DNA from: Marinomonas rhizomae
GTDB taxonomy: Bacteria > Pseudomonadota > Gammaproteobacteria > Pseudomonadales > Marinomonadaceae
Direction: 5' to 3'
DNA: 64,000 nt
NCBI RefSeq assembly: GCF_003315485.1
Contig: NZ_QNSE01000005.1
Coordinates: forward strand, 62,001 to 126,000
A program made the translations under genes and the position numbers. The notes under the pieces were generated by a model. It was not told where the DNA came from, ran no database searches, and saw only the letters and a list, made by a program, of their open reading frames with translations. Positions 2,134 through 6,415 of this stretch are shown here, piece by piece; the first letter of the stretch is position 1; every line of letters begins with the position of its first letter.

Positions 2134-2697
2134 CTAGTGCCCTCTTCCCCCAGAGTGACCGCCAGACCGGCCACCACCGACACTGCTGCCACGATTAGAA
2201 TGGCCTGAATAACCACCAGAGAAACCACTGGTGCTAGAGCGACTACTAGGGGAATAACCAGAATCATTTGTTCGAAACATTGAGCCATAAGAAAACCCGT
2301 TTTGTTGACCATTGCTTCTATGACTAGAGGCTTCAGAGGTGCTTGCGGCACCAACTAAATCACTGTCCGAAACAGACGAACTAGACTCTTCCTCTAGCAC
2401 CGACGTACTACTTCCGCCCGTAACCACACTGGAATCAGTTGAGCTACTAGAAGATTCGCCATTGATAACGGACGTACTACTACTGCCTGTCGTAACGCTG
2501 TCATCGACCGAACTACTGGATTCATTACTAATAACCGAACTGCTCGATGTTGTGCTGCTATCGTTTGAAACAACACTACTATCGCTTGAAACACTGCTTT
2601 CTTCGTCAAGGACATCAGCCAACACTTGAGAAGACAAAGTCCCAAGCACCCCGATCAACAAGCAGAACAAACACGGAGAGATCTTGCGTACTTTCAT
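2134..2697 (-). CDS. Exported Ser-rich low-complexity protein
   Basis: 187 residues from the ATG at 2697, chosen because an AGGTGA ribosome-binding site precedes it and it opens a good signal peptide (MKVRKISPCLFCLLIGVLG, cleavage near VLA-DV); an upstream extension to 2805 would bury it. The mature protein has two parts: an acidic Ser/Thr/Val region with repeated runs such as SSSSVDDSV and GSSSTSV (about residues 30-120), then a basic Gly/Ser/His/Arg tail ending SGGRSGGHSGGRGH. I recognise no fold. It is divergent from the DUF6502-DUF5666 pair and shares with them an intergenic region carrying three matching 17-bp palindromes; the DUF5666 protein ends in a similar His/Ser/Gly/Arg tail. The function is unknown; a surface or matrix role would be a guess. 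Confidence 0.7.
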   Translation of the reverse strand: MKVRKISPCLFCLLIGVLGTLSSQVLADVLDEESSVSSDSSVVSNDSSTTSSSSVISNESSSSVDDSVTTGSSSTSVINGESSSSSTDSSVVTGGSSTSVLEEESSSSVSDSDLVGAASTSEASSHRSNGQQNGFSYGSMFRTNDSGYSPSSRSSTSGFSGGYSGHSNRGSSVGGGRSGGHSGGRGH

Positions 2698-2729
2698 AAC
2701 ATCACCTGCGGAAACAATAAACTTAATTT

Positions 2730-2746
2730 GTGGGATTTTTTCCCAC
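2730..2746. promoter_or_regulatory. Operator copy 1 (GTGGGA-N5-TCCCAC)
   Basis: GTGGGATTTTTTCCCAC is a perfect 6+6 palindrome with a 5-base spacer. It lies 33 bp upstream of the Ser-rich gene start (2697), where a repressor or activator would act. Two related copies follow at 2763 and 2899. Confidence 0.7.
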
Positions 2747-2762
2747 CAAATACAAATATAGC

Positions 2763-2779
2763 GTGTGATATTTTCCCAC
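2763..2779. promoter_or_regulatory. Operator copy 2 (GTGTGA-N5-TCCCAC)
   Basis: GTGTGATATTTTCCCAC matches copy 1 with a single mismatch in the left arm. Its centre is 33 bp from the centre of copy 1, close to three helical turns, so both would face the same side of the DNA. Confidence 0.65.
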
Positions 2780-2898
2780 GTCAACATTATTTCCGTTATA
2801 TTCACAAGAAATTGATCTTTCGACGGCCGTCCTTTTATTCAAAACGCATAATAAAGACCACAAAAAACTAAGCCAAACCGGACATCCATCACAAAAAA

Positions 2899-2915
2899 GT
2901 GGAAAATATTCCCAC
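2899..2915. promoter_or_regulatory. Operator copy 3 (GTGGAA-N5-TCCCAC)
   Basis: GTGGAAAATATTCCCAC matches the same 17-bp pattern with one changed base in the left arm. It ends 42 bp before the DUF6502 start at 2958, so it sits in that gene's promoter. Its centre is 136 bp from copy 2, again close to a whole number of helical turns (13). Confidence 0.65.
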
Positions 2916-2957
2916 ATCAAATTACTATTTCTGAACCTTTATTCTTGATTCCTTTCT

Positions 2958-3779
2958 ATGTCTAAACCGTCAACTAGCAATGATGCCAAGCAACTTATTC
3001 GCAACGCGCTCTACAAAGTGCTGTCTTCGTTGGTCAGGCTGGTGGTGCGTCAAGGTATTACCTTTCCAGAGTTCGCTGATATGCTCAAACGCGCGTATGT
3101 GGAAGAAGTACAAAAAGAGTTGAAGAGCAATAAAGAACGCATCACTCTAAGTCGTATCAGCGTGATCAGCGGGGTGCACAGAAAAGACGTCAAGAGACTC
3201 ACCGATACGCCCGAATTAGACGGTGATAAAAACGAAAAAGTATCACTTACCTCACGTTTATTAAGTTTATGGATGGGCGATTCTCAATTCCTTGATGCAC
3301 AAGGTGATCCCCTTTTGCTACCAAGAACCGGGGCACCATCTTTCGAGTCCCTAGTGTATGCAGTCAGCTCAGACATTCGCCCTCGTACCGTATTGGACGA
3401 TTGGTTACAGCGCGGCCTTATCCAAGGAGATGAAAAAGGTTACCGTTTAATGATGGATGCGTTATTTCCAACGGAAGACATGGCCACTAAAATGGCCTTT
3501 TTTGCCCGAAATACGGCAGACCACATAGCCACTTGCGAGCACAACATCCGCTCAGAAAAAACACCATTGCCCGAACGTTCGGTTTTCTATAACCACCTCA
3601 GCGAAGACTCTATTATCGCGCTTCGAAAACTTGCAGATGACGAAAGCAAAGCTTTGTTAATTCGCATCAACAAACGTGCTCAAGCATTAGCAAAACAAGA
3701 CGATGCAGGGCTAAAAGGCCAATACCGTTTTCTTTTAGGAACATATTTTTATCAGACTGAGGATACTCAGAATGACTAA
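2958..3779 (+). CDS. DUF6502 family protein, probable DNA-binding regulator
   Basis: A 273-residue soluble protein of the DUF6502 family, recognised from its N-terminal region (NALYKVLSSLVRLVVRQGIT, then FPEFADMLKRAYVEE). Residues 63-81 (TLSRISVISGVHRKDVKRL) look like a helix-turn-helix, which makes this the best candidate to bind the three palindromes just upstream. No signal peptide or membrane segment. Its last 8 bases overlap the start of the DUF5666 gene, so the two are translationally coupled. The family's biochemical role is not established as far as I know; the regulator role is my inference from the HTH-like segment and the operators. Confidence 0.8.
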   Translation: MSKPSTSNDAKQLIRNALYKVLSSLVRLVVRQGITFPEFADMLKRAYVEEVQKELKSNKERITLSRISVISGVHRKDVKRLTDTPELDGDKNEKVSLTSRLLSLWMGDSQFLDAQGDPLLLPRTGAPSFESLVYAVSSDIRPRTVLDDWLQRGLIQGDEKGYRLMMDALFPTEDMATKMAFFARNTADHIATCEHNIRSEKTPLPERSVFYNHLSEDSIIALRKLADDESKALLIRINKRAQALAKQDDAGLKGQYRFLLGTYFYQTEDTQND

Positions 3780-4836
3780 ATTAATAGCCGCATTGGTTAT
3801 TTTTATTACTTGCGTATCACTTTTATGGGCTCATGATGACCGAGGTATAGGTGGCACAGGCAAATACTCAGACTCTGATGAGAGAGGTATGGGCGGTACA
3901 GGAAAATACGCAAACAGTGACGACCGAGGTATTGGCGGCACAGCTGTGATAGGTACCATTACTGCGTTTGGTAGTATTTGGGTAAATGGTTTAGAAATCG
4001 AATTTAGTCACGACACTGATATTAAAATGGATGGTCAAAACACTAAAGGTTCATCATTACGAGTGGGACAACAAGTCCAAGTGCTCGCTTCTCAAAAATC
4101 GGGGACGTGGCAAGCCAAGACTATTTTAATTGATCACTCTTTAGTAGGAAGGCTAAAACAAAATGCCGACCAGACATGGAACATCCAAGGCGTCAACATC
4201 ATGAAAGATCCGAATATACCAGGTTCATGGCCAAAACTTACACAGGATGACTATGTCAAAGTCAGCGGTTATTTTGATAGTAACGTGTTTTACGCCACCG
4301 ATATTGTCGCAGCAAACGACGATAACACCTGGAAAGTCAGCGCGCCTATTGTGCTCTCCAAAAACGATAAATGGACAATTGGCAATAACGCTCTGCCAGC
4401 CGATGTACTTGATGCAAAAAGCGGTGAAATAATCACCTTAGCAGGAGTCTACACAGAATATGGCAATCGCTTAACACGAATTTATTACCATAGAGACATC
4501 CCGTTTTCGAACCAAAGTACACACTACATTGTTGAAAAGCGTAGCCCTCAATTTTCAGAAAGTGTGGAATACTCGCCAAGCACCTTTAGGAAAACTATAG
4601 AGCCACAAAACGCTATCAAGCGAGAGCAGCTTGATACTCCGTCCCGCTCCTCATTTTTTAATGAAGCTACGCCGCAACAAAATGATCGCAGCAATCCCTT
4701 CGAGCAATGGAGTAACGGCGGCTTTTCACCTTCGCAAGGCAACCGAGACCCGTTTGGACAGTCGCCAAATGGCACCTTTGGTGATCATTCTCCCTCAAGG
4801 AGTCACTCTGGAGGACAACCGCCCAGAGGACGATAA
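3772..4836 (+). CDS. DUF5666 domain exported protein with RGIGGTG repeats
   Basis: 354 residues. A signal peptide (MTKLIAALVIFITCVSLLWA) is followed by three short repeats DRGIGGTGKY / ERGMGGTGKY / DRGIGGT (about residues 22-57), then the DUF5666 module, seen in VIGTITAFGSIWVNGLEIEF and later beta-rich segments to about residue 235. The last 100 residues are low complexity, Ser/Pro/Asn/Gly-rich, ending in a basic SRSHSGGQPPRGR tail. DUF5666 proteins are exported beta-strand proteins without a settled function and are often found beside DUF6502 genes, as here. The start overlaps the DUF6502 stop by 8 bases. The tail resembles that of the divergent Ser-rich protein, suggesting a shared partner or surface. 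Confidence 0.8.
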   Translation: MTKLIAALVIFITCVSLLWAHDDRGIGGTGKYSDSDERGMGGTGKYANSDDRGIGGTAVIGTITAFGSIWVNGLEIEFSHDTDIKMDGQNTKGSSLRVGQQVQVLASQKSGTWQAKTILIDHSLVGRLKQNADQTWNIQGVNIMKDPNIPGSWPKLTQDDYVKVSGYFDSNVFYATDIVAANDDNTWKVSAPIVLSKNDKWTIGNNALPADVLDAKSGEIITLAGVYTEYGNRLTRIYYHRDIPFSNQSTHYIVEKRSPQFSESVEYSPSTFRKTIEPQNAIKREQLDTPSRSSFFNEATPQQNDRSNPFEQWSNGGFSPSQGNRDPFGQSPNGTFGDHSPSRSHSGGQPPRGR

Positions 4837-4984: not shown

Positions 4985-6415
4985 TCACATACTGCCTCTA
5001 TAAGCCACTATTTTTTCGGCGCTCATTGGACAACCATGGTACCACCCTTGATGAAGATGAATACCGATTCGTTTTGTTTCATCCTTATCTTTTTCTGTCT
5101 CAATGCCTTCGGCAATACAATCAATATTGAGCTCATTACAAAACGCGATTATGGACTTTAGAATCGCAGTATTTTGATCGCTTTTCCCCATGAAAATTTT
5201 ATCCGTTTTGACGATATCAAAGTCAAATTCTGAAATATAAGACAAACCAGAGTACTCAATACCAAAGTCATCAATCGCAAAACGGCAGCCTAATGCTTTC
5301 AATATTTTCATGTGCTCTTTAATCGTCTGTTTTTCCAGCATTAAGTTTTCATCTTCCGTTACTTCAAGGATCAAACTAGAACAGGTTAAGTCTTCTAGTT
5401 GCAATATGTGGTCAACAAAAAATACACTCTTAAGGTGCAAGCTAGAAATGTTCACTTGGAAGTTATTTTGTGCAATAAAGTCTTTTGAAAAATTCAATTC
5501 GATTTGGCGAATTTGAAAAATAGTGTGATCAATACTCAAATCCAAACTTTTCATTTTTGCGATTGTGTCTTTTACATTGACGTCGTCTCGGCTTCTTAAA
5601 AACACTTCAATTGAAAATACTTTGTCTTGATTTGTGTCCACAACAGGCTGGTATTCATTGTAATAATAGTGGTTTGTAATTCGTCGCCTTAACATAATTT
5701 TATCGATCGCTCTGATTAATTGAGGCGTGAATAAAAAATAGGCAATAATGAATAAAAGCAATGTAATAGGAATGAAATACTCATGATATTTTTTGTCAGT
5801 GGAGAGCGGGGAAACATAATAAGCTAAATTATCAAGCACCTCAGAGGTACGGTACTTTTCACCCGTCGACGTCTCGTCACCGGACACAGTCATATGTGAA
5901 CTGTTATTAAAGAATACATCCACACTGCTTTTTTTAATAATTACATTGAATTCAAAGTTTTCGATGGACTTTTTAATAACAAAAATAGGCATTTCAAGTG
6001 AGTTAATCATATGTGGACCCGTTATTAAAAAGCCATCGTGAGGTTTAGGAACCCTAACTTCCACCCTGTCATCATCGCCCCAAGAATTACACACAACTAC
6101 ACCACGATCACCGTCTTTTTCGATAACACCAAACTCAATAGCTCCAGGGATATTAAAAAGCTCTTTGCGCATCAATAGCACAAAACGGCGAGGACAATCG
6201 CCCGTATAATGGTTTGAAATGGAAGAAATAAATGACGTAATTTCCTGAAGATAACCTTCTACTTGAACAAAGTAGCGCTGCTGCTCTTGTTCTCTGGTTT
6301 CTCGCTCTCTTTGTTGCTGCCATGCATTGCCTATAAAAAAAACAGAGGTGGCAAAAAATACTAACAAAAGCAGGTTGATCAAGACTGTTAGCTGCGCCTT
6401 TAATTTTTGGGTCAT
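4985..6415 (-). CDS. CSS-motif/EAL c-di-GMP phosphodiesterase, variant EAL signature
   Basis: 476 residues: TM helix 1 (about 10-30), a periplasmic domain to about 212 with paired cysteines at 74 and 109 (the latter in CNSWG, where the family usually shows a CSS motif), TM helix 2 (about 212-230), then a C-terminal EAL domain. EAL proteins hydrolyse cyclic di-GMP to pGpG, and CSS-type members respond to periplasmic disulfide state. The signature motif reads E270-V-F-L-R instead of EALLR, but the metal and catalytic positions appear intact: E270, N322, E351, D382-D383 (DDFG), K403, E436/E439 (AEGIET) and Q456. I therefore expect it to be active. It is monocistronic. 6416-6629 upstream holds no gene. 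Confidence 0.9.
   Translation of the reverse strand: MTQKLKAQLTVLINLLLLVFFATSVFFIGNAWQQQRERETREQEQQRYFVQVEGYLQEITSFISSISNHYTGDCPRRFVLLMRKELFNIPGAIEFGVIEKDGDRGVVVCNSWGDDDRVEVRVPKPHDGFLITGPHMINSLEMPIFVIKKSIENFEFNVIIKKSSVDVFFNNSSHMTVSGDETSTGEKYRTSEVLDNLAYYVSPLSTDKKYHEYFIPITLLLFIIAYFLFTPQLIRAIDKIMLRRRITNHYYYNEYQPVVDTNQDKVFSIEVFLRSRDDVNVKDTIAKMKSLDLSIDHTIFQIRQIELNFSKDFIAQNNFQVNISSLHLKSVFFVDHILQLEDLTCSSLILEVTEDENLMLEKQTIKEHMKILKALGCRFAIDDFGIEYSGLSYISEFDFDIVKTDKIFMGKSDQNTAILKSIIAFCNELNIDCIAEGIETEKDKDETKRIGIHLHQGWYHGCPMSAEKIVAYRGSM

Follow-up and report, generated by a model that had tools for sequence, protein, structure and literature searches.

What reads the three palindromes in front of the DUF6502 gene of Marinomonas rhizomae, and what is controlled through them? 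The locus lies at positions 2134 to 4836 of a stretch of 64,000 nucleotides (contig NZ_QNSE01000005.1, positions 62,001 to 126,000 of the forward strand), here called the window, whose numbering is used throughout. A preliminary description, made from the sequence alone, proposed a self-regulated system in which the DUF6502 protein binds the palindromes between its own gene and a divergent gene for a Ser-rich exported protein. The comparison of this locus with its relatives makes it quite probable that DUF6502 is a sequence-specific transcription factor that contacts GTGGGA-W5-TCCCAC directly and regulates its own operon. The regulator and its putative operators are:

2730..2746, no strand: operator 1, GTGGGATTTTTTCCCAC, immediately after the -10 box of the Ser-rich gene
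2763..2779, no strand: operator 2, GTGTGATATTTTCCCAC, in the -35/-10 spacer of the Ser-rich promoter
2899..2915, no strand: operator 3, GTGGAAAATATTCCCAC, 59 base pairs (bp) before the DUF6502 start
2958..3779, plus strand: DUF6502 (PF20112) regulator, 273 amino acids (aa), with a predicted helix-turn-helix (HTH) at residues 64-83, a second winged-HTH-like module at 97-165 and a helical C-terminal domain
3147..3206, plus strand: HTH of DUF6502, residues 64-83, with the conserved recognition segment GVHRKDV (from alignments and an AlphaFold2 model)

The palindromes stand exactly where they had been described. With at most one mismatch, the window holds 7 matches against 0.48 expected, and none of 100 shuffles reaches 7. 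A lack of conservation upstream of DUF6502 in related species had been named beforehand as refuting the proposal; instead, conservation of the palindromes reaches well outside the genus. Among 75 non-redundant DUF6502 loci (<75% identity) with the recognition helix HRKD, scanned over 300 bp upstream, GTGGGA-N5-TCCCAC is present exactly in 31, with at most one mismatch in 55 and with at most two in 67; scrambled, reversed and wrong-spacer control patterns reach 0-1 loci at one mismatch. When no pattern is preset, the same sequence comes out as the commonest perfect dyad over all 6-mers and spacers of 0-12. Symmetrised over 146 sites, the consensus reads GTGGGAAATTTTCCCAC; none of the sites departs from G3 or C15. 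Within Marinomonas, the palindrome is found upstream of DUF6502 in 7 of the 8 DUF6502 loci.

The distribution of the palindromes points to their binder. DUF6502 is present in 8 of the 49 Marinomonas genomes searched and in 48 of the 294 genomes of the order. Exact GTGGGA-W5-TCCCAC occurs in 15 of these 294 genomes, and all 15 are among the 48 with DUF6502 (hypergeometric probability 2e-13; related loci are not independent, so that small probabilities of this kind overstate the certainty). In members with other recognition helices (TRKE, SRKE, NRKD, HRKE, NRKE), the palindrome next to the start codon is another one, (T)TGGGA-N6-TCCCA(A). In 124 non-redundant loci, HRKD goes with 79 N5 and 2 N6 sites, HRRD with one N5 site, and the other helices with 20 N6 and 0 N5 sites. 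Of the 19 genomes of the order (among 294) in which TTGGGA-W6-TCCCAA is present, 17 have DUF6502. In genome G054, which carries two DUF6502 paralogues, N5-class sites precede one gene and an N6 site precedes the other, whose helix reads GLHRKDVSRL. Because operator spacing covaries with the class of the recognition helix, DUF6502 itself is the likely binder, as the preliminary description had guessed. The existence of two operator classes, and of two paralogues in one genome, makes specificity directly testable.

The window regulator matches DUF6502 at E 5.6e-29 (101 bits against a cut-off of 27, residues 17-268), and only this Pfam profile: no match to TetR, MarR or other named HTH families is found. 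Among 63 DUF6502 members, Pfam matches to other families are few and weak. The family has no NCBIfam match and no solved structure related to it by sequence; no paper naming DUF6502 was found in a literature search, and no DUF6502 protein was found in viral contigs. In a scan of one genome per species, 254 loci were found, 80 of which were retained; they belong to Alpha-, Beta- and Gammaproteobacteria, with a few metagenome bins labelled otherwise. An AlphaFold2 model, built from a 63-sequence alignment (mean pLDDT 84.8, pTM 0.65), has predicted HTH helices at residues 64-71 and 75-83, in good agreement with the HTH-like segment first guessed at 63-81, then a second winged-HTH-like unit (97-165) and C-terminal helices. 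With VIA-align, many HTH domains superpose on residues 34-93. With Foldseek against the PDB, no match has E <0.001 (best 0.69 for the full model and 0.41 for residues 94-270). For a family without assigned function, spread over three proteobacterial classes, this suggests what the protein probably does, which DNA it would bind and which genes it may control.

On the side of the divergent gene, two elements matter for the use of the sites:

2134..2697, minus strand: Ser-rich exported protein, divergent from DUF6502, with a probable ATG start at 2697 and a Gly/Ser/His/Arg tail (open reading frame with a signal-peptide-like start)
2755..2784, minus strand: candidate sigma-70 promoter of the Ser-rich gene, TTGACG-18-TATATT, with 10 of 12 positions matching the consensus (consensus match only)

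In the list of open reading frames, the Ser-rich gene starts with GTG at 2805, and the first residues (TWENITR, WWEKIP) are the palindromes translated. Since the residues upstream of 2697 merely translate the palindromes, the start at 2805 is over-called, and ATG 2697, which opens a signal peptide, is the likely one. The Pfam scan assigns no family to the protein. All 4 loci with the divergent Ser-rich gene (the window, L017, L018 and L019) have two sites spaced 33-36 bp apart. No such pair occurs in the four relatives of the Marinomonas group that lack the gene, where at most one site is present; in three of these (L021, L022, L023), another gene lies upstream and the lone site, at -61 or -66, is the counterpart of operator 3. 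The pair therefore tracks the Ser-rich gene and the single site tracks DUF6502. Part of the original picture stands, with a conserved operator that follows DUF6502 and exported proteins at the locus, and part is to be changed: the Ser-rich gene, whose counterparts adjoin DUF6502 in L017, L018 and L019, is a lineage-specific target and not the core of the system. In 16 loci (L027, L029, L091, L098, L105 and others), the gene divergent from DUF6502 encodes an alpha/beta-hydrolase-like protein instead of the Ser-rich one.

In the mechanism that we propose, DUF6502 would bind the palindrome, probably as a dimer, and would keep under its own control an operon composed of the regulator and an exported protein with GIxG[ST]G motifs. 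The same operator would allow it to co-regulate other exported or envelope proteins, at the window the divergent Ser-rich protein. In the N6 class, the A/T spacer holds a -10-like box and the start codon follows only a few bases later; 6 of 23 sites also have a TTGACA-like box 17 bp upstream of the palindrome. Occupancy of such a site would block the promoter. Sites 1 and 2 of the window would cover the Ser-rich promoter likewise. Copy 1 had been described as covering this promoter; in the candidate promoter placed here, it is site 2 that occupies the spacer, with site 1 just past the -10 box. Because operators overlap promoter elements, autorepression is probably the best reading of the geometry. 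The centre distances of 33 and 136 bp were given correctly. Strict whole-turn phasing of the sites, also proposed from the window, was rejected, since spacings in other loci cluster at 29, 33-37 and 60-66 bp (mode 36) and are not a general fit. As for the signal, the first candidate would be the exported protein with the motifs, whole or in part.

Beside the dependence among loci mentioned above, several observations weigh against autoregulation by DUF6502 in this form. The Marinomonas locus L020 has no palindrome upstream of DUF6502, L017-L019 are without a site near the DUF6502 start, and 17 of 98 HRKD loci have no site at one mismatch within 330 bp. The N5 sites keep no clear fixed distance to a -35 box, and the choice between repression and activation is drawn from geometry alone. 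Away from the locus, no obvious target follows some of the sites, among them L154, L155 and L229, which may be chance occurrences.

It is rather unlikely that DUF6502, bound to the palindromes, is an activator, or an activator at some positions and a repressor at others. Many N5 sites are 60-160 bp upstream of the start codon, where activators often sit, and the pairs at 33-37 bp could be side-by-side activator dimers; yet site 2 falls between the -35 and -10 boxes of the Ser-rich promoter, the -10 box of the N6 class is inside the palindrome, and the N5 sites form their largest group around -28 relative to the start codon. A different doubt concerns the identity of the binder. Binding by DUF6502 is a prediction, and palindromes upstream of genes are often sites of other factors, so that another regulator common to the same genomes could be at work, with DUF6502 merely a target gene. 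The absence of the exact site from genomes of the order without DUF6502 makes this very unlikely, as does the spacer length, which follows the helix class of DUF6502 down to the two paralogues of one genome with their different operators. Finally, the palindromes might be RNA hairpins (terminators or elements of translational control) instead of protein sites, and the minus strand of site 3 does score as terminator-like. This is barely plausible, given that the half-sites are kept as sequence and not only as pairing, as at the two invariant positions, and that the N6 sites hold the -10 box and hence are not fully transcribed. Binding by DUF6502, with repression, is the reading retained below.

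The gene after DUF6502 usually overlaps it or is close to it and encodes an exported protein. In the window, its elements (the motifs as read in the sequence) are:

3772..4836, plus strand: exported partner of 354 aa, whose gene shares 8 bases with that of DUF6502; it has GIGGTG motifs, then DUF5666, and a Ser/His/Gly/Arg tail
3844..3861, plus strand: first GIGGTG motif, within DRGIGGTGK
3886..3903, plus strand: second motif, GMGGTG, within ERGMGGTGK
3928-3945, plus strand: degenerate third copy, GIGGTA

The DUF5666 domain (PF18914) of this protein is recognized at E 8e-11 (42.5 bits against a cut-off of 27), and many partners of other loci carry it. DUF5666 as the constant partner was rejected, since short partners of ~95-110 aa consist of a signal peptide, the motif and an acidic or ERPERPE tail, without DUF5666. 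The domain occurs also in genomes without DUF6502, and the DUF5666 proteins that could be read from such genomes (L235, L236, L237, L241, L250) have no motif. In a simple scan, GxGGTG, mostly GIGGTG, is present in 1-8 copies in the partner of 102 of 116 loci; a loose form of the motif is found in 13 of 1089 other open reading frames of the same loci. With other helix classes, the motif of the partner becomes GIRGTG, GIKGTG, GIEGTG, GI[GS]GSG and similar; TRKE-type loci combine the N6 operator with variants such as GIRGTG. The core of the system is DUF6502 together with an exported GIxG[ST]G protein, which often but not always carries DUF5666. For a regulatory locus, it is unusual that a near-invariant short peptide stays constant while the rest of the exported partner changes; the peptide provides a concrete signal candidate. 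A literature search on GIGGTG returned nothing relevant. In the TRKE group (L172, L179, L180, L181, L189), the usual order is an exported DUF5666-type gene, DUF6502 and an exported GIRGTG gene, all on one strand, and N6 dyads occur upstream of the first gene too.

A small regulator of this architecture next to an exported Gly-[Ser/Thr]-Gly protein recalls HetR and its peptides. HetR binds the 17-bp repeat GAGGGGTCTAACCCCTC, with GGG-N5-CCC as the core requirement of its target (PMC4192349); it is released from DNA by RGSGR-type peptides that bind its hood domain (PMC4649674), and PatX is exported and processed to HRGTGR (PMC12756182). The two systems share a regulator of similar size, a 17-bp palindrome with GGG/CCC half-sites, and autoregulation (predicted for DUF6502); the order of HTH, middle and C-terminal domains may also be the same. 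The exported GIxG[ST]G protein could then be processed, and the peptide re-enter the cell and release DUF6502 from DNA. For such a circuit speaks the motif itself, which nearly all partners in the family have, the ~100-aa ones among them, and which is absent from the DUF5666 proteins read in genomes without DUF6502. HetR is also the only solved structure that aligns collinearly over the whole DUF6502 model (213-228 residues with VIA-align), although with Z 5.8-6.5 and a root-mean-square deviation (rmsd) of 11-12 Å; for residues 94-270 modelled alone, it again covers the entire segment (Z 6.0-6.6, rmsd 11.4-11.8), and common winged-HTH domains match as well. Against it, the profile comparison gives no sequence support: hhalign E is 0.42-0.67 with a shallow HetR profile (3 close sequences), and HetR ranks 239 of 493 among decoys. 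No HetR family appears in the Pfam scans of the 63 DUF6502 members, and a search for distant HetR relatives, for a better profile, found none in viral contigs or plasmids. The half-sites are spaced differently, GGG-N7-CCC in the HRKD loci instead of the GGG-N5-CCC of HetR, and no peptidase or import route was identified. The window partner has GIGGTG, GMGGTG and GIGGTA but no RG[ST]GR, unlike PatS/PatX, with the GIRGTG variant in one clade. HetR belongs to filamentous cyanobacteria, DUF6502 to Pseudomonadota with no known differentiation. Because sequence support is lacking and the GGG/CCC spacing differs, we do not file DUF6502 as HetR, and homology between the two is not supported by sequence. 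A peptide circuit of this type is distinctly unlikely on present evidence. Were it real, the processed peptide would set how tightly DUF6502 holds DNA and would coordinate the output of surface proteins, within a cell or among cells. The HetR-PatX principle would then be known from two systems that sequence comparison does not link.

The layout, with an HTH regulator that adjoins its target and putative operators over both promoters, is also that of small TetR/MarR-type autorepressors with divergent targets, and the modelled HTH of DUF6502 alone superposes on domains of the TetR/FadR type. DUF6502 differs from the TetR and MarR families by the absence of a Pfam match to them and by the second winged-HTH-like module that follows the first.

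Exact sites off the DUF6502 locus precede mostly exported proteins. In two families of the order, they stand before beta-propeller proteins of PF09826, and, in G195 and G312, before trypsin-like proteases with a GlyGly-CTERM-like end and before a membrane transglutaminase/ATP-grasp protein. Relatives of the protease are encoded by the gene divergent from DUF6502 in G054, G097 and G298. Two sites 34 bp apart precede a di-haem oxidoreductase (L230), and a site precedes a TPR and beta-barrel protein (L233). In L157 and L158 (near 3200), L166, L167 and L170, a trypsin-type protease with a GlyGly-CTERM-like end is divergent from DUF6502 or stands elsewhere with its own operator pair, 35 bp apart.

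The two exported proteins of the window had been described as ending in similar tails. The similarity is real and recurs in other loci (L017, L018, L019, L060 and L125 beside the window), where tails match within the locus and vary greatly between lineages. In L060, both tails are ERVE/EKVE repeats; in L125, both are ETPEVETPE repeats. In six loci, which were picked by eye for low-complexity ends in both proteins and of which four are from one genus or near it, the tail composition of the divergent protein has a mean cosine of 0.90 with that of its own neighbour and of 0.50 with those of other loci (permutation P 0.003). The N-terminal parts of the same pairs differ little in this respect (0.61 with the own neighbour, 0.55 with other loci). 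We treat the matching of tails within a locus as a lead only.

Other genes accompany the cassette. In 55 loci (e.g., L027, L069, L075), a protein of ~250-280 aa resembling an outer-membrane barrel is linked to it, usually as the second gene after DUF6502; the single member scanned (L069) has no Pfam match, and the protein was not found at the window locus. On the minus strand of the window, a small outer-membrane beta-barrel protein (PF13505) at 1473-2060 adjoins the Ser-rich gene, with relatives placed likewise in L017 and L018, and a probable lipoprotein with a DUF7482 domain is encoded at 827-1354. On the other side of the DUF6502 cassette, also on the minus strand, a membrane-anchored EAL-domain protein occupies 4985-6415.

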